A stretch of 21,126 nt of DNA, taken from positions 1 to 21,126 of the IMG/VR virus record IMGVR_UViG_3300048778_000061; one strand, given 5' to 3'. Below the pieces are notes generated by a model. That model made no database searches and was not told where the DNA came from. It saw only the letters and a list, made by a program, of their open reading frames with translations. The translations under genes and the position numbers were made by a program. Source of the stretch: a virus. This document shows, in pieces, positions 2,822 to 18,404 of the stretch; positions within the stretch are counted from its first letter, which is position 1, and the number at the start of each line of letters is the position of its first letter.

Positions 2822-2850
2822 ATCATACCATCTTTAATCTCATGTGTCAA
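2822..2850 (-). promoter_or_regulatory. Strong sigma70-type promoter into the gene-free region
   Basis: On the minus strand TTGACA (2850-2845), a 17-bp spacer and TATGAT (2827-2822). The spacer carries GATTAAAGATG, shared almost exactly with the promoters at 3416, 9087 and 16342. It overlaps the end of the HNH gene and its first downstream start codon is that of uvsY, about 880 bp away, so its transcript would begin with a long untranslated stretch. Confidence 0.7.
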
Positions 2851-3325
2851 GGACTTTTTCAAGGTAAACATATCCATTAAGTTTTTTATTTAATCTTCTT
2901 CTCATCGTAGTGTCAGGTATACTCATTTCAATACATGCCAAGCAAACACTTTCGAAAATTCTATCATATATTTTTACTGGTCTGCTTTTCCAATTTAATT
3001 TACCAGTATTAAAAAATGCATTCTTGATTCTTAGTTGTTCGTATTCTTTAGAACTTAATTTTATTCTTTGTTGATTTTCGGAAGAACTCAGAGACATTTT
3101 ATGATAGCCCATGAACAAACTTTTATTTCCTGGATAAGCTTTAGAAAGTAATTTATGTGCAAGAAAATGTTCTCTAGCAGTCAGAAGAACCATATTTTCT
3201 TTTTTATTAGAACCACCCAGACACTTAGGAATGATGTGATGGTTTTCGAAATAGTCTGAGCCTTTCTTTCGGTTTTGTTCCTTGGCATGTTCTATCAGTT
3301 TATTGTAGAGCTTCAAGTATGTCAT
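2840..3325 (-). CDS. HNH homing-type endonuclease with NUMOD tail
   Basis: Free-standing HNH endonuclease of the T4 Mob/SPO1 type, expected to cut related phage DNA lacking the gene and so spread it by recombination. The HNH motif is clear: ENHHIIPKCLGGSN at residues 27-40 (His29/His30), Asn44, then LTAREHFLAHKLL with His53 and His57. Residues about 116-155 (KIYDRIFESVCLACIEMS onward) look like a NUMOD1-type DNA-binding module with a following helix-turn-helix. No Shine-Dalgarno sequence precedes the ATG. A CATAAATA box lies at 3339-3332, 6 nt upstream, so a late transcript would be nearly leaderless. The gene separates uvsY and its long leader from the divergent gp46 operon, and a strong promoter overlaps its 3' end. 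Full length for this family. Confidence 0.85.
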   Translation of the reverse strand: MTYLKLYNKLIEHAKEQNRKKGSDYFENHHIIPKCLGGSNKKENMVLLTAREHFLAHKLLSKAYPGNKSLFMGYHKMSLSSSENQQRIKLSSKEYEQLRIKNAFFNTGKLNWKSRPVKIYDRIFESVCLACIEMSIPDTTMRRRLNKKLNGYVYLEKVLDT

Positions 3326-3469: not shown

Positions 3470-5230
3470 ATGTATTTTAGAATAAACCATCAAATTGTAA
3501 GAAATTTTTTGAGTTATGGAAACATAGAAACCAAACTTGAATTCGAACCAGGGCTTTCATTAGTTCATGCTAAGAATGGCGGCGGCAAGTCTACGTTGTT
3601 TTTGGATGCAGTTTCTTATAACCTTTACGGAAAACCTTACAGAGATATTAAGATAGGGGAATTAGCAAACCGTAAGAATGGTTGTAAGGGATTGTATACA
3701 GAAGGGTCTTATACAATTGATAAAGATACCTATAGAATAATTCGGACATATGCTCCAGCAAGATTAGAAATTTATAAGAATGATGATCCTAAACCATTAG
3801 AGTCGGCATCTTCTAAAAAATTAGATCAGGAAGAAATTGAAGACTTGATTGGAATTAATTACAACATATTCAAATTAGTTATTGCTATCGCTACTTCTTC
3901 CAACCCACCATTCCTTTCTTTAGGACTTCCGGAAAAGCGTAAAGTAATGGAATCTATTTTCTCTATAAACATTTTCGGAGAGATGCTTGCAAAGGCTAGG
4001 AAAAGTTTTAACGGAAAGAAAACAGAAAAGACTATATATCAAAACAATGTAAATAATTTAAAATCTCTTTTGATATCTCTTAAAAATCAAATTACGGAAA
4101 TAGATAATTCGATTAGAGATTTTGATTCTACCAAAGCCGAAGAGATAGAGTCTTTAAAAAATAAAAAGAAAACTATCACAAAAGATATTAAAGATCTTTC
4201 GGAAAAACTTAAAGAACTAGAATCTTTAAAAATTGAATTGGATATTGCTGATTATGTTTCAGAACAAATTAAGATAGATTCTGAAATAAAGTTTTCCGAA
4301 AATAAGATAAAAGAAAACAAAACACAAATAAAGTTTTTGGAAAAGAATACTGAATGTCCTCTTTGCAAACACGAATTAACGAAAGATCATAAGAAAGAAG
4401 AGTTAGAAAAGTTAGAAAAGACGAATGTTAATTTACAGAAAGTTATTGATAAAAATAAAGTAAAGCTTTCCGAAACACTTTCTAAGATAACTAAGCAAAA
4501 AGAAATTAAGAAACTTTTTGAAGAAACTAATTCAAATGTTTCTATGACAAATTTAAAGATAAAGAATTTAGAAAAGAACCGTGGTGATATTGAAGACCAG
4601 ATTAAAAAAGTTGAAGAACGTGTATTTAACTTAGATTCTACAAATATTAAAAAAGACTTTGATGAAAAATCGGTTACATTTAAAGAATACGCTAATAAAT
4701 TAGATGATCTCAATAAGGATCTTAAAAAATTAGAGATGGTTATTAAGATGCTTTCCGAAGAAGGTATTAAAAGTTATTTCTTCAAACGCCTTGTTCCTCT
4801 CTTGAATGCTAAGATAAATGAACAACTAAATAACTTTGATCTTCCAGTAGTGATAAATTTTAATGAAAATATGGAAGAGTCTATAGATGAAATTGGTTCG
4901 GCAGAAAAAGGAATCTCTTACAATAGTTTTTCTGAAGGTGAGAAGAAGCGTATTGATATAGCCATTCTTTTATCCTTTATAAACACTATGAAGACCATTT
5001 CTAATTGGAATTGTAATCTTCTAGTATTTGATGAAATTCTTGATTCAGCTACTGATGCAGATGGTTTGGAAAAGTTGTTAGGGTCTATTAAAGAAATTAC
5101 TTTGAAAGATTCTAATATTTGTTCTTATGTAGTTTCTCACAGAGAGTCTATGCAAGATTTATATGACAGGATTATAGAGATAAAGAAAGTGAATGGTTTT
5201 TCAAAAGTTGAGGTAAAAACAAATGGCTAA
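3470..5230 (+). CDS. 46: gp46-like recombination nuclease ATPase subunit (Rad50/SbcC family)
   Basis: Large subunit of the gp46/gp47 exonuclease, which resects DNA ends to make 3' overhangs for UvsX-driven recombination and replication, and takes part in host DNA degradation. It has all the SMC/Rad50 landmarks: Walker A HAKNGGGKST at residues 33-42, a long Lys/Glu-rich coiled coil interrupted by a zinc hook CPLC at 296-299, the ABC signature SFSEGEKKR at about 486-494, and Walker B LLVFDEILDS with Asp521/Glu522. At 586 aa it is close to T4 gp46 (560 aa). The start lies about 20 nt after a strong promoter, with only a weak GAGA ribosome binding site. The stop overlaps the gp55 gene by 8 nt, and its partner gp47 follows after it. 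Confidence 0.95.
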   Translation: MYFRINHQIVRNFLSYGNIETKLEFEPGLSLVHAKNGGGKSTLFLDAVSYNLYGKPYRDIKIGELANRKNGCKGLYTEGSYTIDKDTYRIIRTYAPARLEIYKNDDPKPLESASSKKLDQEEIEDLIGINYNIFKLVIAIATSSNPPFLSLGLPEKRKVMESIFSINIFGEMLAKARKSFNGKKTEKTIYQNNVNNLKSLLISLKNQITEIDNSIRDFDSTKAEEIESLKNKKKTITKDIKDLSEKLKELESLKIELDIADYVSEQIKIDSEIKFSENKIKENKTQIKFLEKNTECPLCKHELTKDHKKEELEKLEKTNVNLQKVIDKNKVKLSETLSKITKQKEIKKLFEETNSNVSMTNLKIKNLEKNRGDIEDQIKKVEERVFNLDSTNIKKDFDEKSVTFKEYANKLDDLNKDLKKLEMVIKMLSEEGIKSYFFKRLVPLLNAKINEQLNNFDLPVVINFNENMEESIDEIGSAEKGISYNSFSEGEKKRIDIAILLSFINTMKTISNWNCNLLVFDEILDSATDADGLEKLLGSIKEITLKDSNICSYVVSHRESMQDLYDRIIEIKKVNGFSKVEVKTNG

Positions 5231-5645
5231 GAAAAAGAAAGAAGGTTATTTTAACAACGAAGAAGTTTTAGAATTTTTTAAGAGAAGAAATTTCTTAAAA
5301 TCTCTCGAAACTCGAACATTTCAAGAAGATAGAGAGTTGTTCAAAATTAAAGAAAAGTTGGGAGTTCTTTATTTCAAGATTTCCGAAGGACTTTTGCGTA
5401 GACCTAACTTTTGTAATTATGATATTGCTACAAAGTCCGAGATGATTTCTGATGCAGTTTATAATTGTCTTAAAGCTGGTGATAATTACGACGTAAAGTT
5501 TGATAAGCCTCATGCATACTTTACGCAAATTTCTTGGAATGCTTTTATCTTGAATATTAAAAATTTGAAGAAACGCTCTGGATTGATTCTTCCATTGTCG
5601 CATATAGAGAATATGGAAGCTGGAGATGATGGAGCAGGTGAATGA
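5223..5645 (+). CDS. 55: gp55-like late sigma factor, short C-terminus
   Basis: T4 gp55-type sigma factor, which binds host RNA polymerase core and recognises the TATAAATA box of late promoters. Residues about 55-118 match the gp55 pattern: EGLLRRPNFCNYDIATKSEM, then NCLKAGDNYDVKFDKPHAYF, then TQISWNAFILNIKNLKKR; T4 gp55 has [20 protein letters not shown] at the equivalent place. It is only 140 aa against about 185 in T4. The last residues are LPLSHIENMEAGDDGAGE, so the C-terminal clamp-binding peptide of T4 (LDFLYE) is missing. There is no space for a lost tail: the stop codon overlaps the ATG of gp47 (ATGA). It begins inside gp46 with GAGG 9 nt upstream. Function is well supported; independence from the clamp is inference. 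Confidence 0.88.
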   Translation: MAKKKKEGYFNNEEVLEFFKRRNFLKSLETRTFQEDRELFKIKEKLGVLYFKISEGLLRRPNFCNYDIATKSEMISDAVYNCLKAGDNYDVKFDKPHAYFTQISWNAFILNIKNLKKRSGLILPLSHIENMEAGDDGAGE

Positions 5646-7211: not shown

Positions 7212-8414
7212 ATGGACTTTGAAAAATTTAAGGAATCTATTAACGAACTCTCTACGAAAAATGTAGAAGTAATTAGACCGGAAAGTTTAGCTAATGTGGT
7301 TCAAATTAAAAAGAATGTATTGTTAAGTTTCGTTTCTGATGCTACTGGTTGTGGACATATTAGAAACGTATTTCCTTTAACATATTTGAACGCACTTTTC
7401 GGAAAAGAACAAGTTTGTATTCCTATCATTTCTCCAATTTTTATTAAACAAGAAGATATTTTGGTTAAGACTAAAACAATTTTATTTCAGAGAAACATGG
7501 CTCCTGAACATCATCAACATGTCCAGTGGTATAAACAGAACCAAGCTAAGTATGGTTATAAGATGGTTTATGATATTGACGATTTCATTTGGGGACATAA
7601 TGAAAAACAGGGTGGAGATAAGGAAGATGGAGTTCCTAGTTATAATTTTGGTTGGCATGGAATTACAGAACCAGTTAAGAAATACTCTGTAGAAATTATT
7701 AAAATGATGGACCATGTTACTGTTACAAGTCAATTTCTAAAAGATTATATGATAAATGAATTGGGAATTACTTGTTCTATTTCAGTTCTTCCTAATTCTA
7801 TTCCTATGTATTTTTGGGGAAATAAGCGCAAAGCTCCTAAGAAAAATCCTATCAAGAAACCTAAAGTAATCTATACTGGTTCCCCTACGCACTATTCTAA
7901 TCAGGAAAGAATGTTAGGAGATTTCGAAAACTCTTTCAAAGATTTCGTGATTCAAAATGTCTTAAATGATAAAATTGATTTCGTTTGTATGGGTGATTTG
8001 CCATGGTTTTTCGAAGGTATTAAGACAAAGGTTCAGGTGTTGGGTTGGTTAAATTCTTATCAATACCATCTTGGAGTAAAATCTGTAAATGCGGATTTTG
8101 GAATTGGTCCACTTGTAAGAAACAATTTTAATTACTCTAAATCGAATATCAAATATCAGGAACTAGCTTGTGAAGGAATTCCTTTTATTGGAAGTGTTTT
8201 CACAAATGGTAAACCAAGTCCTTATGATACTTGTGAACTAACTGTTAAAGACGTTTGCTCTGTAGAAGATATAGAGAAAATTGTGTTCAATCTTTCGGAA
8301 AACCCTGAGAAATATAATTCAGTAGTTTCTAAGCAATATGAATTTTTAGATAGAACTGGAGGATATCTCGAATCTCCACAATACGTTCAAAAACTAGTTG
8401 ATAATTATTTTTAA
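7212..8414 (+). CDS. GT-B fold glycosyltransferase (GT4-like)
   Basis: Predicted nucleotide-sugar glycosyltransferase of about 400 aa. The N-terminal domain carries the segment YDIDDFIWG at residues 120-128, typical of phage GT4-like enzymes. The C-terminal donor-binding domain has KVIYTGSPTHYSN, then VQVLGWL, then KSNIKYQELACEGIPFIGSVF at about residues 310-330, which places the acidic residue and loop that contact the sugar nucleotide. No signal peptide or membrane helix is present, so it acts in the cytoplasm. In T4-like phages such enzymes can glucosylate modified cytosine in phage DNA, but no hydroxymethylase is in this window, so the acceptor (DNA, protein or surface glycan) is open. 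AGAGGA is about 10 nt upstream of ATG 7212; the ATG at 7208 is out of frame. Confidence 0.85.
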   Translation: MDFEKFKESINELSTKNVEVIRPESLANVVQIKKNVLLSFVSDATGCGHIRNVFPLTYLNALFGKEQVCIPIISPIFIKQEDILVKTKTILFQRNMAPEHHQHVQWYKQNQAKYGYKMVYDIDDFIWGHNEKQGGDKEDGVPSYNFGWHGITEPVKKYSVEIIKMMDHVTVTSQFLKDYMINELGITCSISVLPNSIPMYFWGNKRKAPKKNPIKKPKVIYTGSPTHYSNQERMLGDFENSFKDFVIQNVLNDKIDFVCMGDLPWFFEGIKTKVQVLGWLNSYQYHLGVKSVNADFGIGPLVRNNFNYSKSNIKYQELACEGIPFIGSVFTNGKPSPYDTCELTVKDVCSVEDIEKIVFNLSENPEKYNSVVSKQYEFLDRTGGYLESPQYVQKLVDNYF

Positions 8415-9136: not shown

Positions 9137-10048
9137 ATGAATTTAACAAAACAATATCAGCAAATTTTAAGAAGAGATGCGAAAATACTAAACATATGTC
9201 ACTTTGATTTAGATGGTGTAGGTTCTAGTATAGTTGTAAAGAATGTTTTCAAAAATGTTTCCTTCATAGATTTAAAATATGGTCAAGTAGACATATTTTT
9301 AAAGAACTTAGATTTCTCAGAATATGATGTAGTTCTTATGACAGACATTTCTCCAGAGACAGAGGAAGTTTTTAATCTTTCTGATAAACTATTTCTTCTC
9401 GATCATCATGACACTGCGGTTCGTTTCAATAATCCTGAAAAGAATCGAATCGTAATTGCTGGAAAATCTGCTTGCTTACTTTGCAAAAACTTTTTCGAAA
9501 ATCTTTTTAATCTAGACTTATCATATCTCGATGAACTTTGCAAATATATAAATGATTTTGATATGTGGGAATTAAAGTTTTTCGAAAAATCTTGGTCATT
9601 TAATTGTTTGTATTACTATTACTTTTCGAATGATTTTAGAAAACGTTTCGGAAATGGTGATGTAAAGTTTAATGATATAGAAATAAAATATATATTAGAA
9701 CAAAGAAAACTTTTAGAAAAAATCTATAAGAATGTTAACTTTTACGAATTAGAATCTATAAAATCGGGATTCTATATCGGAGGAAATTTCATAAACGATA
9801 TTTGCCACAGACTAATGATAGATAAAAATTTAGATATGGTGTTCTGTATAAATCCAAAATCTAATAGTTGTTCTGTTAGGTCTAGAAACGAAAATATACA
9901 CATAGGAAATATTTTACATGAGTTGTTTGCTGGAGGTGGACATCACGCGGCTGGAGCTTTCCATCTCAAAGAATACGATGACATTCAAGAAAGTATTGAG
10001 AAAGTTGAACGATACCTTTTCAAAAATTTTTCCGAAATAAGAAGATGA
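9137..10048 (+). CDS. DHH/DHHA1 phosphoesterase (NrnA/RecJ-like)
   Basis: Predicted Mn-dependent phosphoesterase of the DHH superfamily, cytoplasmic. All catalytic motifs are intact: HFDLDGVGSS at residues 22-31 (Asp24, Asp26), Asp70 in MTDIS, LLDHHD at 87-92, INDFDMWE as the fourth motif, and GGGHHAAG at 266-273 as the DHHA1 substrate-binding loop. At 303 aa it is the size of NrnA-type nano-RNases or cyclic-dinucleotide phosphodiesterases, not of full-length RecJ. Possible roles are recycling of short oligonucleotides from degraded DNA/RNA or removing nucleotide second messengers; the sequence does not decide. It is first in its transcription unit, just downstream of a strong promoter, followed 7 nt later by the minigene chain leading into the polymerase gene. 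Confidence 0.88.
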   Translation: MNLTKQYQQILRRDAKILNICHFDLDGVGSSIVVKNVFKNVSFIDLKYGQVDIFLKNLDFSEYDVVLMTDISPETEEVFNLSDKLFLLDHHDTAVRFNNPEKNRIVIAGKSACLLCKNFFENLFNLDLSYLDELCKYINDFDMWELKFFEKSWSFNCLYYYYFSNDFRKRFGNGDVKFNDIEIKYILEQRKLLEKIYKNVNFYELESIKSGFYIGGNFINDICHRLMIDKNLDMVFCINPKSNSCSVRSRNENIHIGNILHELFAGGGHHAAGAFHLKEYDDIQESIEKVERYLFKNFSEIRR

Positions 10049-13494: not shown

Positions 13495-14649
13495 ATGGCT
13501 AAAGAAAAGAAAGAAAAAATTGTTGGAGAAGGAATGGGAAAAGCGGCCAGTCTGATGGACCGCATTTTGAAAAATAGTAGTATACCTCTGGCTTGTAAAT
13601 TATCAGAGTCTCAAATATTAGATGAAGATAAACCAATTCCAACAGACTATCCTATGATGAATGTTGCATTAAAAGGAAAATTATTAGATGGTGGAATTAC
13701 TCCTGGAATTATTCAATTTTGTGGAGTATCTAAAACGTTTAAGTCTTCGTTTATGTTACTTTTGGCGAGTGCATATTTGAAAGCAAATCCAGGATCGTTA
13801 TTTTTATTTTTTGATAATGAATTTGGAACTAGAAAATCTTACTTCGAATTATTTGATATAGACCCAAATTTTGTAGTGCATCTTCCATTTCAATCAATAG
13901 AAGAATTAAAATTTGAAATGGTAAAGCAATTAGATATGTTAACTATTGACGATAAAGTAATTTTTGGTATTGATTCTTTGGGCCTTTCTAGTTCTCTAAA
14001 AGAATTAAATGATGCAGAAAATATGAAGTCTGCGCTCGATTTATCGAGGCCAAAAAGTTTGAAGTCGTTATTTAGAATAATTACTCCTAAAATTTGTTTG
14101 AAGAAAATTCCGACAATAGTAATTAACCATATTTACAATGATATTTCAACTTTCTATCCCAGCGTCGTTATTGGCGGCGGGCAAGGTTCGGTTTTGGCTA
14201 GTAATAGTATTTTCGTAACGACGAAACAAAAGCTTAAGGAAGGAGAAAATCATGTTGGATATAAATTTCTTCTTAAAGTTAATAAATCTAGAGACGTTAA
14301 AGAAGGAACCGTAATACCATTTTCGATTAAGTGGGATGGTAGTATGTCAAAGTATTCCGGATTAGATGTTATTGCAGTTGATTTGGGCATCATAGATAAG
14401 GCTAAAGAAGGGAAACGAAATGCTTATCAATATCAAACTATTTCAGGAAATGTTTTGAAAGTGTTAGAAAAGGATGTTGATGATGCTGAAGAATTTTGGC
14501 AGACTATTTTTAAGGAAACCGATTTGATTTATAGAATCGAATGTATGTATCAATTAGGAAAACATTCAAAAGATTCTCTAAATGTTGAAGAGGATAATAC
14601 TGTGGTTGCTCAGAATCTTGTATTTGTCGATGAAGGAGAAGAAGACTAA
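13495..14649 (+). CDS. uvsX: UvsX recombinase (RecA family)
   Basis: Phage RecA/RAD51 relative that forms filaments on single-stranded DNA and drives strand exchange in recombination-dependent replication. Walker A GVSKTFKSS at residues 77-85 has the T4-type form GPSKSFKS. FFDNEFG at 106-112 holds the catalytic glutamate, Walker B is KVIFGIDSLG with Asp160, and the L2-region motif is VVIGGGQGSV. LKSLFRIITP and KIPTIVINHIY also match T4 UvsX in pattern. Length 384 aa, close to T4 (about 390). Start ATGGCTAAAG has AAGGAG 10 nt upstream. The preceding 79 bp contain stacked direct repeats, and the stop codon lies in a CTAAATA late-promoter-like box that begins the leader of the next gene. The matching mediator UvsY lies at 1526-1939. 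Confidence 0.95.
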   Translation: MAKEKKEKIVGEGMGKAASLMDRILKNSSIPLACKLSESQILDEDKPIPTDYPMMNVALKGKLLDGGITPGIIQFCGVSKTFKSSFMLLLASAYLKANPGSLFLFFDNEFGTRKSYFELFDIDPNFVVHLPFQSIEELKFEMVKQLDMLTIDDKVIFGIDSLGLSSSLKELNDAENMKSALDLSRPKSLKSLFRIITPKICLKKIPTIVINHIYNDISTFYPSVVIGGGQGSVLASNSIFVTTKQKLKEGENHVGYKFLLKVNKSRDVKEGTVIPFSIKWDGSMSKYSGLDVIAVDLGIIDKAKEGKRNAYQYQTISGNVLKVLEKDVDDAEEFWQTIFKETDLIYRIECMYQLGKHSKDSLNVEEDNTVVAQNLVFVDEGEED

Positions 14650-14652
14650 ATA
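14646..14652 (+). promoter_or_regulatory. Putative late promoter box before nuclease gene A
   Basis: CTAAATA overlapping the uvsX stop codon. A gp55-type start 6-7 nt downstream would fall at about 14659, exactly where the structured leader begins. The equivalent box at 16789 has the same relation to the second leader, which raises my confidence above that for an isolated TAAATA. Confidence 0.45.
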
Positions 14653-14658
14653 AAAGTA

Positions 14659-14736
14659 GAACAATTCTTCTATGATCGGATTGAATTGTTTAGGGAGAAA
14701 TCCCGGATCATAGTAAACAATTCAATTCCATAGGAG
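14659..14736 (+). ncRNA. Pseudoknot leader of nuclease gene A (copy 1)
   Basis: Predicted structured 5' leader. Helix 1: CTATGATC (14670-14677) with GATCATAG (14706-14713). Helix 2: GAATTGTTTA (14683-14692) with TAAACAATTC (14714-14723). Because the 5' strand of helix 2 lies inside helix 1 and its partner lies outside, the two form a pseudoknot with contiguous 3' strands. Between them sits GGGA-GAAA-TCCC (14693-14704), a hairpin with a GAAA tetraloop. Two alternatives are built in: AACAATTC at 14660-14667 can also pair with GAATTGTT, and TTCTATG (14668-14674) can pair with CATAGGA (14729-14735), which contains the ribosome binding site. The second copy at 16801 keeps every pairing with changed bases. 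A leader that controls translation of the nuclease is the simplest reading. Confidence 0.7.
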
Positions 14737-14745
14737 TATATTAAA

Positions 14746-16392
14746 ATGGCTAAGAAAATAACCAACATTGAATTTTTAGAAATAGTAAATAATAAGTTTA
14801 ATTTCTTTTATACATATTCAGAAGAATATCAAGGATCTTCAAAATATATTAAAATAATTTGCCCAAAACATGGCGAATTTTTATGTAATGCTGGTCATCA
14901 TTTAGCAGGTCATGGGTGCCAAATTTGTGGTGGAAATTTAAGAAAAACTACGAAACAGTTCATATCAGATGCTGATTTTGTTCATGATAGAAAATACGAA
15001 TATCCCGATGAATATCTTGGAGCACATAAAAAGATAAGAATAATTTGTCCAGAACATGGAGAGTTTTTTCAAAAGCCAAATTCACATTTAAATGGTCATG
15101 GTTGTCAAAAATGTGGAAAATGTTATAGACGAACACATGAAGAATATGTCAATGAATGTAATATAGTTCATGAAAACAAATTTAAATATATTAGTGAATT
15201 TGTTTGCCTAAATGATAAAATAAAAATTGAATGTCCTATACATGGAATTTTTGAGCAAAGGGCAGGAGATCATTTAAGAGGATATGGTTGCGATAAGTGT
15301 GGTGGAACTTGTGAAAAAACTAATCAAGAATTTTTAGAAGAAGCTAAAGAAAAACATGGAGACAAATATTATTATCCAGAAGAATATAAAGGATCAACTG
15401 TTAAGATTAAAATAGTATGTCCCGACCATGGACCATTTTACCAATCACCATCACATCATACAAGGGGTGAAGGGTGTTCGCAATGTTCTAGGCCAGTTTT
15501 TGACACAGAGTCGTTTTTGACAGAATCTAAAAAGGTTCATGGAGACAAATATGAATATCCTGATGAATATGTTGGAAGCAAAATAAGGATAAGAATTATA
15601 TGTCCAGAACATGGAGAATTTTTTCAAACACCAAATGCTCATACTCAAGGCTCTGGTTGCCAAAAATGCTATGGAAATCAATTAAAAACTACACCAGAAT
15701 TTATAGAAGATGCAATTGAAGAACATGGAGAAGTTTATTCATATATTTCTGCTACTTATATAAATTCTAAAACTTCGTTAATGATTATTTGTAAAAAACA
15801 TGGTCCGTTTTGGCAAGTCCCCTCTGACCATTTAGACGGATGTGGATGCCCTACTTGTAATATGTCTCAAGGCGAAAGAAAGATATTAAAAATTTTAACA
15901 AAGCATAATATCAACAATGATCCTCAATATAAATTTAAAGATTGTAAAAATATATATCCTTTAAGGTTTGATTTTGGTATTCTAAACAATTCCGAAAAAT
16001 TATTAGGATTAGTTGAATATCATGGAGAACAGCATTATATTCCAACCGATTTTACAAAAAAATTAACGTTATTTGAAATGGAAGAAGAATTAAAAGAACG
16101 TCAAGCAAGAGACCAAATAAAAAAGACCTATTGCGAAACTAATAAAATTCCTCTTCTTTGCATACCATATTTTGAAAAGTTTCCAGAAAGTATGCTTATA
16201 GATTTCTTAAAAAATACTCTAAACATTGAATTTAAAAATGACCCAACATGCTTAAACGTTAGAGAATATTATCCTGAAAGTTTTCTAAAACCTTTTCCGA
16301 AATGTCCTTCAAAAGATCCCAACAAGTCATCCAAATCTTCCTTGACAGTTCACATTAAAGATGCTACAATAGTCCTAGAGGAAACTGAATGA
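14746..16392 (+). CDS. Repeat-containing zinc-knuckle nuclease A (DUF723-like repeats plus Vsr/PD-(D/E)XK-like domain)
   Basis: Putative free-standing mobile endonuclease of 548 aa. Residues 6 to about 375 hold six tandem repeats of about 61 aa, each with the pattern EF...A...HG.KY.YP.EY, then I.CP.HG.F.Q....HL.G.GC.KC: two His/Cys clusters that probably bind zinc and, repeated, read along DNA. They resemble DUF723-type repeats. The C-terminal domain has LRFDFGIL (Asp409) and GLVEYHGEQHY (Glu424, Gln429, His430), the D...ExxGxQHY pattern of Vsr-like nuclease folds in phage endonucleases, and IPLLCIPYFE. Preceded by a pseudoknot leader, with AGGAG 9 nt before the ATG. Its last residues, roughly 520-548, are translated from the promoter of the next gene, and it overlaps that gene by ATGA. 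Paralogue: gene B at 16893. Confidence 0.75.
   Translation: MAKKITNIEFLEIVNNKFNFFYTYSEEYQGSSKYIKIICPKHGEFLCNAGHHLAGHGCQICGGNLRKTTKQFISDADFVHDRKYEYPDEYLGAHKKIRIICPEHGEFFQKPNSHLNGHGCQKCGKCYRRTHEEYVNECNIVHENKFKYISEFVCLNDKIKIECPIHGIFEQRAGDHLRGYGCDKCGGTCEKTNQEFLEEAKEKHGDKYYYPEEYKGSTVKIKIVCPDHGPFYQSPSHHTRGEGCSQCSRPVFDTESFLTESKKVHGDKYEYPDEYVGSKIRIRIICPEHGEFFQTPNAHTQGSGCQKCYGNQLKTTPEFIEDAIEEHGEVYSYISATYINSKTSLMIICKKHGPFWQVPSDHLDGCGCPTCNMSQGERKILKILTKHNINNDPQYKFKDCKNIYPLRFDFGILNNSEKLLGLVEYHGEQHYIPTDFTKKLTLFEMEEELKERQARDQIKKTYCETNKIPLLCIPYFEKFPESMLIDFLKNTLNIEFKNDPTCLNVREYYPESFLKPFPKCPSKDPNKSSKSSLTVHIKDATIVLEETE
16342..16370 (+). promoter_or_regulatory. Promoter of the 133-aa orphan, inside nuclease gene A
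   Basis: TTGACA (16342-16347), 17-bp spacer, TACAAT (16365-16370). The spacer contains CATTAAAGATGC, matching the promoters at 9087 and, on the minus strand, 2850. It lies in the 3' end of the upstream nuclease gene. Expected start is near 16377, 12 nt before ATG 16389. Confidence 0.75.
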
Positions 16393-16790
16393 AACTTTTA
16401 AGAAAAGATTCTGAAATAGCTATGTGGAGATTTTTCCGAAAAGAGTCTACAAATGTTTTTCGGAATTGGCCTGGACAGTTTGAAAAGAACAATCCTATGT
16501 TTCCAAATGTTTTCCAAAAACCTTCTAAGGTAAAGGAAATCTATTCGGAAAAGTCTTTGAAGATTGGTGTAAATTTTGAAATGAGAATTGGAAATGATTC
16601 GGTGAAGCTTTCAGATACTTTTGATGTAGACAATTTGAATAGGAATGATATAGGAAAGATTATTGTAGAAAATTTAGAGAAACATGGTTACAAATTTGCT
16701 CAAGGTTTGCCGGAGTTTAATTCGATCTTTCTGCAAGCTTTTTATAATAATTCTTATGAGTTTCAAACGACCTTGGTTGATAGGGTTTGA
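16389..16790 (+). CDS. Hypothetical protein between the two nuclease genes
   Basis: A 133-aa protein of unknown family. The N-terminal third is basic and aromatic (MWRFFRKESTNVFRNWPGQF), the middle has a beta-like LKIGVNFEMRIGNDSVKLSD, and the C-terminus reads GKIIVENLEKHGYKFAQGLP onward. It has its own strong promoter (16342-16370) and an AGAGGA ribosome binding site 6 nt before the ATG, so it is an independent early-type gene. Its start codon overlaps the stop of nuclease gene A and its stop codon overlaps the late-promoter-like box of the next leader. In T4 the gene between uvsX and 41 is gene 40; the position is equivalent but I see no sequence support for gp40. Confidence 0.65.
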   Translation: MKLLRKDSEIAMWRFFRKESTNVFRNWPGQFEKNNPMFPNVFQKPSKVKEIYSEKSLKIGVNFEMRIGNDSVKLSDTFDVDNLNRNDIGKIIVENLEKHGYKFAQGLPEFNSIFLQAFYNNSYEFQTTLVDRV

Positions 16791-16796
16791 TAAATA
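16789..16796 (+). promoter_or_regulatory. Putative late promoter box before nuclease gene B
   Basis: GATAAATA beginning in the TGA stop of the preceding gene. A start 6-7 nt downstream would fall at about 16803, at the 5' end of the second pseudoknot leader. Placement mirrors the box at 14646. Confidence 0.45.
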
Positions 16797-16800
16797 ATAG

Positions 16801-16883
16801 AAACAGTTCTTCTATGGTTGGATTGGACTGTTTTGGGGAAGAAATTCTCAAACCATAGCAAAACAGTTCAGTCACATAGAGGA
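16801..16883 (+). ncRNA. Pseudoknot leader of nuclease gene B (copy 2)
   Basis: Same architecture as the leader at 14659. Helix 1: CTATGGTT (16812-16819) with AACCATAG (16851-16858). Helix 2: GGACTGTTTT (16825-16834) with AAAACAGTTC (16860-16869), including one G-U pair. Hairpin GGGAA-GAAA-TTCTC (16836-16849) keeps the GAAA loop. Against copy 1, helix 1 has two pair replacements (A-T to G-C, C-G to T-A) and helix 2 has two (T-A to C-G, A-T to T-A), all preserving pairing. The upstream competitor arm has changed in step to AAACAGTTC (16801-16809). TCTATG can also pair with CATAGA (16875-16880) next to the ribosome binding site AGAGGA. Confidence 0.7.
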
Positions 16884-16892
16884 AAACTTAAA

Positions 16893-18404
16893 ATGACAAA
16901 AAAATTGACACATGAAATATTTTTAGAAAGAGCTAATAAGATACACGACAACTTTTATAGTTATCCTGAAAATTATATTACAGCGAACACAAAAATAGGA
17001 ATAATTTGCCCTAAGCATGGAATATTCCAACAAACTCCATGGTTGCATATGTTGGGTCAGGGTTGTTCTAAATGTGTTGGAAAGAATAAAACTACTAACG
17101 ACTATATATCAGAGGCAAAAGAAGTTCACGGCGAAAAATATAAGTATCATTTAATAAAATATGAAAATTGTAACACCCCCGTCGAAATTATTTGCCCAGA
17201 ACATGGAGTATTTAAACAACTCATAAGTAGTCATTTATTAGGATATGGTTGCGGAAAATGTGCAGGAAATAAGTTGAAGACTACAGATGAATTCAAAGCT
17301 GAAGCAAAAGAAATTAACGGCGAAAAATATGATTATAGTTTAGTTATATATAAAAATAGTCAAACTGATGTGGATATTATTTGTAGAACTCATGGAGTAT
17401 TTCACCAATCACCCGCACATCATTTACAAGGAGGTGGGTGCCCAAAATGTTTAGGGAGAAATAAAACCACCGGAGAGTTTAATATACAAGCTGGAAATAT
17501 ACACAATTTCTTTTATACATACCCTGATGAATATGTTCGTGCAAATCAAAAGATTAGAATAATTTGTCCAGAACATGGAGATTTTTATCAGACACCTAAC
17601 AAGCATTTATCTGGTGGTGGTTGCGGAAAATGCGTTGGCCTATATAAAACCACCGAAGAATTTAGAAATGAAGCAAGAAAAATACATAATAATTTTTACG
17701 AATATCCTGATGAGTATGTTTTATCAGAAACAAAGATGAGAATAATCTGTTCGGTTCATGGTGAATTTTATCAAACACCAAAAGACCATTTGCAAGGCAA
17801 GAGATGTCAAAGATGTGCTGGAGTGAACTTAAAAACTACAGACGAATTTAGAGAAGATGCGATAAATGTTCACGGCGACAAATATAAATATCATCTTGTA
17901 GATTATAAAGGTGCTCATGTTAAAGTTAAAATTTTATGCGGTGAACATGGAGAATTTGAACAAACACCGCATAGCCATTTGAGTGGTGGAGGTTGCCCTG
18001 AATGTAAAAAATCGAGGGGGGAATCAAAAATAAGAAATTTTCTTAATATTTGCAATATAACATTTACGCCACAATATAAATTTGATGATTGTCGGAATGT
18101 AAACCCTTTACCATTTGATTTTGGTATTTTGGATAATAATGGAAGTTTTCTTGGTGTTATAGAATATCAAGGAGAGCAACATTATGGTTTAGTTAATTTT
18201 AGTGGGAAACTGACTAAAGAAAAACAACAGGAAAATTTTGAAAAAACAATGTCGAATGATTTTACTAAAAAGTGTTATTGTGATTTTTATAAAAAGCCTT
18301 TGTTGTGTATTCCATATTTTGAAAAGAATTGGAAAGATGTTTTGAAAAATTTTTTGGAAAACGATTTAGGATTAGTTCTTAATAAAAAGAATAATCAGGA
18401 GTAA
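16893..18404 (+). CDS. Repeat-containing zinc-knuckle nuclease B, paralogue of A
   Basis: A 503-aa paralogue of the gene at 14746. It has six His/Cys repeats of about 61 aa (for example IICPEHGVFKQLISSHLLGY followed by GCGKC) and the same C-terminal nuclease-like domain, with Asp409 in LPFDFGIL, Glu424 in GVIEYQGEQHY, and KKPLLCIPYFE. The catalytic positions have the same residue numbers as in A. I start at ATG 16893 (MTKKLTHEIF), which has AGAGGA 8-9 nt upstream and matches the start of A. The in-frame ATG at 16818 lies inside the pseudoknot leader with no ribosome binding site. The gene ends at FLENDLGLVLNKKNNQE without the extra C-terminal tail seen in A, just before the TTG start of gp41. 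A mobile endonuclease role is inferred. Confidence 0.75.
   Translation: MTKKLTHEIFLERANKIHDNFYSYPENYITANTKIGIICPKHGIFQQTPWLHMLGQGCSKCVGKNKTTNDYISEAKEVHGEKYKYHLIKYENCNTPVEIICPEHGVFKQLISSHLLGYGCGKCAGNKLKTTDEFKAEAKEINGEKYDYSLVIYKNSQTDVDIICRTHGVFHQSPAHHLQGGGCPKCLGRNKTTGEFNIQAGNIHNFFYTYPDEYVRANQKIRIICPEHGDFYQTPNKHLSGGGCGKCVGLYKTTEEFRNEARKIHNNFYEYPDEYVLSETKMRIICSVHGEFYQTPKDHLQGKRCQRCAGVNLKTTDEFREDAINVHGDKYKYHLVDYKGAHVKVKILCGEHGEFEQTPHSHLSGGGCPECKKSRGESKIRNFLNICNITFTPQYKFDDCRNVNPLPFDFGILDNNGSFLGVIEYQGEQHYGLVNFSGKLTKEKQQENFEKTMSNDFTKKCYCDFYKKPLLCIPYFEKNWKDVLKNFLENDLGLVLNKKNNQE

Follow-up and report, generated by a model that had tools for sequence, protein, structure and literature searches.

Because homing nucleases cut DNA, a phage has to restrict them, and control of homing endonuclease genes by sequestering the ribosome binding site (RBS) is already known. 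In phage T4, the late transcription start removes the 5′ arm of the mask, so that the late mRNA is open (PMC2988022, PMC3014915). Here we analysed a 21,126-nt stretch of an IMG/VR virus contig (IMGVR_UViG_3300048778_000061; this whole stretch is called the window below), in which two nuclease genes are each directly preceded, up to the ATG, by a leader with the same order of pairing arms, and we compared it with sister contigs, labelled by L and G numbers. The leader is real, conserved and beyond chance expectation; with its competing folds it is a variation on the known theme, and a new one. We put a probability of roughly 0.5 on its being a self-contained bistable translational control element of homing-type nuclease genes, carried along with the nuclease and preceded by a late promoter of its own.

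Both leaders lie on the plus strand and contain every arm that the first-pass annotation of the window had drawn. Copy 1 runs from the predicted transcription start to the start codon (14658–14745) and comprises arm a (14660–14667), arm b (14670–14677), arm a′ (14683–14690), the hairpin GGGA-GAAA-TCCC with a GAAA loop (14693–14704), arm b′ (14706–14713), arm a″ (14716–14723) and a segment (14729–14736) holding CATAG (14729–14733) and the Shine-Dalgarno sequence (SD) AGGAG (14732–14736), with the ATG of nuclease 1 at 14746. Copy 2 (16802–16892) repeats this order, with arm a at 16802–16809, b at 16812–16819, a′ at 16825–16832, the GAAA-loop hairpin at 16836–16849, b′ at 16851–16858, a″ at 16862–16869, CATAG at 16875–16879 and the SD AGAGG at 16878–16882 (together 16875–16882), and the ATG of nuclease 2 at 16893. 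In copy 1, arm a can pair with a′ over nine positions (eight Watson-Crick pairs and one G-U), and b′ with b through eight Watson-Crick pairs. The arrangement appears most consistent with shared strands: a′ would choose a or a″ as its partner, and b would choose b′ or, when the preceding TT is included, the SD region, which in the masked state of copy 1 would pair with TTCTATG.

The sister contigs yielded three more full copies, each 5′ of a related nuclease gene; in two of these copies the arm sequences are unrelated. Copy 3 stands 5′ of the nuclease 1 orthologue (contigs L018 and L004), copy 4 stands 5′ of a further nuclease behind gp32 (L169 and L187), and copy 5 stands 5′ of a fourth nuclease on a 67.7-kb contig of L188. 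An inventory of nine contigs placed the leader on all five distinct intact DUF723/DUF4379 nuclease genes of this group of uncultured T4-like phages. The search for further copies that the first-pass annotation had proposed was run as an architecture search rather than with a covariance model, and with copies 3–5 in hand the proposal is not refuted. Scoring by maximal helices, which were required not to overlap, missed copies 3 and 4 and was replaced by a k-mer scan. When viral contigs were scanned with a 15-base pattern, the matches were mostly due to chance, the real ones being only close relatives of the window; a gapped pattern scan returned copies 1–3 and otherwise chance matches, and L169, one of the contigs it fetched, also carried copy 4. 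The strict architecture (b·b′ of at least 7 Watson-Crick pairs, a′·a″ of at least 8, and a gap of at most 2 nt between b′ and a″) was present in 0 of 81 distant nuclease relatives, and no leader was seen on the nuclease relatives in L277 and L278. Furthermore, an Rfam scan of the window gave no family at the gathering score, and no match of the leader among cultured phages rose above noise in BLASTN.

The pairing is kept while the sequence changes. Between copies 1 and 2, b·b′ differs by two double changes and a′·a″ by one double change and one G-U, and the extension of the latter helix adds another double change, so the covariation on which the first-pass annotation had built is borne out. 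The arms of copies 4 and 5 have almost no sequence in common with those of copies 1–3 or with each other, and the architecture is the same; in a cross-pairing table they formed 7–9 pairs with their own partners and 1–5 pairs with the partners from copies 1–3. MAFFT misaligned copies 4 and 5 with copies 1–3, and pairs were thus counted on arms placed by structure and not by a covariance model. Taken together, both a·a′ and b·b′ appear to be conserved through compensatory change, with a′·a″ as a putative competitor for the same strand. In Markov-1 sequence of the same composition, the strict architecture occurred 26 times in 7.89 Mb, that is once per 303 kb, and the chance of such a match in a given 110-nt leader is near 4e-4. 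Segment shuffles on the copies not used for discovery, combined by Fisher's method, gave 4e-5 for a·a′, 1.5e-6 for b·b′, 9e-6 for a′·a″ and 2e-6 for b·SD, to be read with the caveat that copy 3 and a shortened leader (described below) are kin to copies 1–2 or to each other. Moreover, the minimum-free-energy (MFE) z-scores of the five leaders against dinucleotide shuffles were −4.9, −6.1, −4.0, −3.9 and −3.2, and none of 200 shuffles per leader matched the native value.

Every copy has as its MFE fold a nested hairpin that joins a′ to a″ and joins b, together with its neighbours, to the SD region. Helix a′·a″, for which 8 bp had been claimed, exists and is longer, at about 13–15 bp in the predicted folds of copies 1 and 2 (about 13 bp in copy 1 and about 15 bp in copy 2). 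In RNA beginning at the predicted late start, the SD is mostly paired in prediction, with a probability of being unpaired of 0.00–0.23, which supports the RBS masking proposed in the first-pass annotation. Likewise, CATAG touches the SD in copies 1 and 2 as it had noted, and this contact belongs to a b·SD pairing of wider occurrence, for which copies 4 and 5 use other sequence. This nested fold is the predicted ground state of all copies, and it could suffice without any switch: a plain T4-type RBS-sequestering hairpin, made of a′·a″ and b·SD, would keep nuclease translation low on all transcripts, with arms a and b′ as remnants or padding, and opening would fall to upstream ribosomes, RNase processing or an unseen start site. 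Structures that hide the RBS in I-TevI, I-TevII, I-TevIII, segB and Aeh1 mobE (PMC2988022, PMC3014915) provide precedents, whereas the persistence of a and b′ as partners of a′ and b in copies of unrelated sequence argues against mere remnants; we regard the plain hairpin as possible, short of probable.

When growing prefixes of the leader were folded, the a·a′ hairpin appeared first in all five copies, and the SD-masking hairpin appeared only after a″ and the SD were present; the GAAA hairpin also formed early, after which b·b′ became possible. These folds, which support the bistable nuclease-gene leader proposed earlier, suggest two states. In state A, a′·a and b′·b would form an H-type pseudoknot around the GAAA-loop hairpin and leave the SD free; in state B, a′ would pair with the longer a″, and b with its neighbouring bases would pair with the SD region, giving a long nested hairpin with the SD hidden inside. 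Because its strands are transcribed first, state A can precede state B and would arise on nascent late RNA; state B, predicted to be the more stable, would need a″ and the SD. The first-pass annotation had combined a′·a″ with b·b′ in a single pseudoknot, which we no longer retain: the 0–2 nt between b′ and a″ would probably leave an 8-bp helix strained, and MFE folding predicts another structure.

Most likely, then, fresh late transcripts would have a brief translation window, after which the leader would silence itself. By a rough estimate, opening the 8-bp b·b′ helix would take on the order of seconds, comparable to translation initiation. What the sequences and folds show is the arms, their covariation, their distribution among genomes, the promoter motif, the inserted cassette and the order of the MFE folds. 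We infer that translation takes place in state A, that the change to state B is slow enough to be of consequence and that the purpose is to ration the nuclease; the pseudoknot state and its role are both predictions. Such a co-transcriptional switch would be the simplest account that uses all arms, and it is the account that we favour; through RNA folding, the phage probably limits its output of a hazardous enzyme. A more specific version, in which the leader acts as a mobile ‘translation timer’ that limits the rounds of translation per nuclease mRNA and is, at the same time, a late-promoter-borne module common to unrelated nuclease families in one phage lineage, we offer only tentatively as a whole, with the odds against it. 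If the switch is as described, the leader would be a compact natural case of timing by RNA folding, kept despite almost no common arm sequence.

Several points weigh against the switch. The arms were picked by inspection, which makes the shuffle p-values partly circular, and copies 1–3 are related by descent, so that the changes represent few independent events (about three sequence families). The b·SD pairing is weak in copy 3 (p 0.50). The MFE of prefixes is no kinetic simulation, and the pseudoknot energy, about −21 to −26 kcal/mol before any pseudoknot penalty, is a sum over its helices. Furthermore, the joining segments of the a·a′/b·b′ pseudoknot are short in copies 4 and 5. Among the helices, a·a′ contains G-U pairs in copies 1–4 and one mismatch in copy 5, and a′·a″ is the longer of the two when counted in full, including the part that extends to the SD side.

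Within the GAAA hairpin, GAAAU is conserved in all five full copies while the stems differ. A constant apical loop on changing stems is what a protein-binding operator might display, with the nuclease fingers, gp32 or another phage protein binding one fold to repress or activate translation; T4 gp32 binds the pseudoknot of its own leader (PMC3014915). No other bases are conserved, however, and the gene 32 operator has an unstructured A+U-rich RBS stretch, whereas the SD here lies in a helix, so that we judge an operator quite improbable. A riboswitch was also considered and rejected: only the GAAAU loop is common to all five leaders, and with stems and joints varying there is no invariant core.

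Each leader begins at a candidate late promoter, as had been proposed for the leader's edge. The motif [AC]TAAATA precedes all five leaders and the shortened one, and the predicted +1, taken as five bases beyond the motif, falls at arm a or within three bases of it. In the window, the late-promoter-like sequences, both on the plus strand, are ACTAAATA for copy 1 (14645–14652, predicted +1 at about 14658) and GATAAATA for copy 2 (16789–16796, predicted +1 at about 16802). In G007, a contig of structural genes, the density of TAAATA on the sense strand was 5.3/kb in the 100 nt upstream of genes, compared with 1.0/kb on the sense strand and 0.5/kb on the antisense strand overall, and control hexamers upstream of the same genes mostly showed no enrichment (AATAAT, 3.6 against 1.6). 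The exact sequence TATAAATA, tried as the late motif of the group, was not enriched in the first contigs searched; the looser [AC]TAAATA is the motif, and the corresponding motif of T4-like cyanophages is NATAAATA (PMC2984593). The window also encodes a homologue of the late sigma factor gp55 (5223–5645, plus strand; phrog_234 late sigma transcription factor, E 1.7e-22), which matched annotated late sigma factors of T4-like phages by tblastn as well, and this supports a T4-type late promoter system in this phage. Other late genes of the group mostly have 16–35 nt between motif and ATG, with weak structure; in the nuclease leaders this distance is 90–96 nt and the folding energy is −24 to −32 kcal/mol.

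With the predicted late +1 at arm a and so outside the mask, late transcripts would carry the whole mask, and the predicted late-start RNA still folds with its SD paired. We looked for a T4-like, start-dependent opening and found that the predicted SD accessibility from the late start was no higher than in read-through RNA. Thus, the likeness to the hairpins of T4 homing endonuclease genes that the first-pass annotation had pointed out stands, and its suggestion that late transcription opens the leader as in T4 does not; a +1 outside the mask, unlike in the T4 cases, also counts against the plain hairpin. The placing of arm a at the late start would find an explanation in an attenuation-like sensor of upstream translation, in which a ribosome ending the upstream gene on read-through mRNA would cover arm a and favour the masked fold, and late transcripts starting from arm a without that ribosome would adopt the open pseudoknot. 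In copies 1 and 2, and likewise in copy 3, which is linked to uvsX, the upstream gene does end with a stop codon about 10 nt 5′ of arm a. About 80 nt and a terminator-like hairpin separate copy 4 from gp32, however, and copy 5 has as its nearest upstream neighbour an open reading frame (ORF) on the other strand, so that attenuation fits at best three of the five copies and is unlikely.

Leader and nuclease 2 moved as one unit. Nuclease 2 belongs to an inserted cassette of late promoter, leader and nuclease gene (16789–18398, ends approximate, plus strand), which sits between a 133-aa gene and the DnaB-like helicase gene; in sister contigs L018, L004 and L006 the empty junction GGGTTTAGGAGATATCTTTGGAAG is found without nuclease 2. 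Because the insertion in the window holds promoter motif, leader and ORF together, we conclude that the leader moved with the nuclease. Movement as part of a cassette would also suit an element acting at the DNA level, whose inverted and direct repeats would serve as an operator or as a target of the nuclease itself, conserved in the form of DNA, and I-TevI is known to bind an operator over its late promoter (PMC2988022). Yet copies 4 and 5 have the pairing and not the sequence in common with copies 1–3, and the spacing to the SD and ATG is kept, as expected of RNA and not of a DNA site, which makes a DNA-level element very improbable.

A shortened leader precedes an Endo VII-like nuclease (phrog_1035) at position 1738 on the reverse strand of contig G007 (loci L189–L192). 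The late motif is the same, an arm a is present, and the SD is masked by a perfect 22-bp hairpin; b′ and the GAAA hairpin are lacking, and a′ and a″ resemble those of copy 3. A perfect mask without b′ favours the plain hairpin, and the retention of arm a (7 pairs with 1 G-U) speaks against it, though with a shuffle p of only 0.07. Two other Endo VII-like genes of the group, one in G004 and a second one in G007, have no such leader. The shortened form suggests that the module crosses nuclease families, though it is not on every nuclease. In the window, the Endo VII-like nuclease ORF at 2–646 (phrog_1035) has its 5′ side cut off by the window edge, and the late leader of its G004 homologue is short and unstructured.

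Altered nuclease loci were observed in several contigs. In L006 (contig IMGVR_UViG_3300029914_000429, 1178–2986), a 602-aa methylase-like ORF, with an NPPF motif recognized by eye, has taken the place of most of nuclease 1, with the leader truncated after GAGAAATC; L184 is the same. In L129 (9161) and L164 (4159), a deletion bounded by two AACATTGAATTT repeats, at 14764 and 16222 in the window, has shrunk nuclease 1 to a 58-aa ORF, and the leader is intact. In L178 (16687–16850), a remnant of a nuclease C-terminus follows directly behind the terminator-like hairpin of gp32, and the leader and most of the ORF are gone. In L010 (2890–3001), a distant nuclease relative is preceded by the exact TATAAATA and then by a hairpin whose loop, CCTGTA, is complementary to the SD TACAGG; to judge from this complementarity, it is another, differently built SD-masking design.

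The window carries a T4-like gene set, identified by profile searches as UvsX, family-B DNA polymerase, DnaB-like helicase and the late sigma factor gp55. The uvsX recombinase gene (13495–14649, phrog_97, E 3.4e-61) is the 5′ neighbour of nuclease 1 (14746–16392; PF14311, E 3.1e-10; phrog_559, E 1.8e-97), and nuclease 2 (16893–18404; PF14311, E 5.8e-12; PF05265 DUF723, E 4.5e-9; phrog_681, E 1e-102) is of the same family, all three on the plus strand. Nuclease 1 consists of repeated DUF723/DUF4379 treble-clef fingers followed by a C-terminal nuclease-like domain; such fingers, shared by both window nucleases (phage endonuclease families phrog_559 and phrog_681), are likely DNA-binding parts of phage homing endonucleases (PMC10448857). 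Membership in the endonuclease families phrog_559, phrog_681 and phrog_9084, with DUF723/DUF4379 domains, in a T4-like phage marks these genes as putative homing-type nucleases; the nuclease profile had no match among solved structures. Elsewhere in the window, an HNH homing-type endonuclease gene (2840–3325, minus strand; phrog_655, E 6.7e-37) has ATAAATA a few nucleotides 5′ of its ATG and a leader without strong structure, and the replication cluster also includes DHH phosphoesterase-like (9137–10048) and glycosyltransferase-like (7212–8414) genes.

Leaders with metastable folds include those of hok and of the MS2 maturation gene, and the open-then-closed order proposed here is most like the MS2 maturation leader. 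We know of no comparable leader for the homing endonuclease F-CphI. In the aapA3 type I toxin mRNA of Helicobacter pylori, which likewise encodes a harmful product, sequential folds during transcription alter access to the SD (PMC6733600); its transient folds close the SD, whereas here the early fold is predicted to be open and the final one closed. The Endo VII-like nuclease behind the shortened leader is comparable to F-CphI, which is described as a homing endonuclease of a cyanophage that carries an Endo VII motif (PMC6083498). The T4 gene 32 leader also places a pseudoknot, here a possible one, in the translation control of a T4-like phage (PMC3014915), but there the pseudoknot is followed by an unstructured A+U-rich operator bound by gp32, whereas the present leader has its SD inside a predicted helix and competing strands. 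The closest resemblance is to the leaders of I-TevI, I-TevII, I-TevIII, segB and Aeh1 mobE, in which a mobile nuclease gene likewise has a late promoter directly upstream and a hairpin over the SD (PMC2988022, PMC3014915). Unlike these, the present leader has its predicted start at the outer edge, so that the whole element is in the late transcript, and it has five arms with two competing sets of partners, a possible pseudoknot and an extra GAAA hairpin. The findings point to a putative regulatory RNA that moves with mobile nuclease cassettes and is common to different nuclease families, and to a design that differs from that of T4 in that the late transcript would contain both the mask and its competing fold, across a phage lineage.

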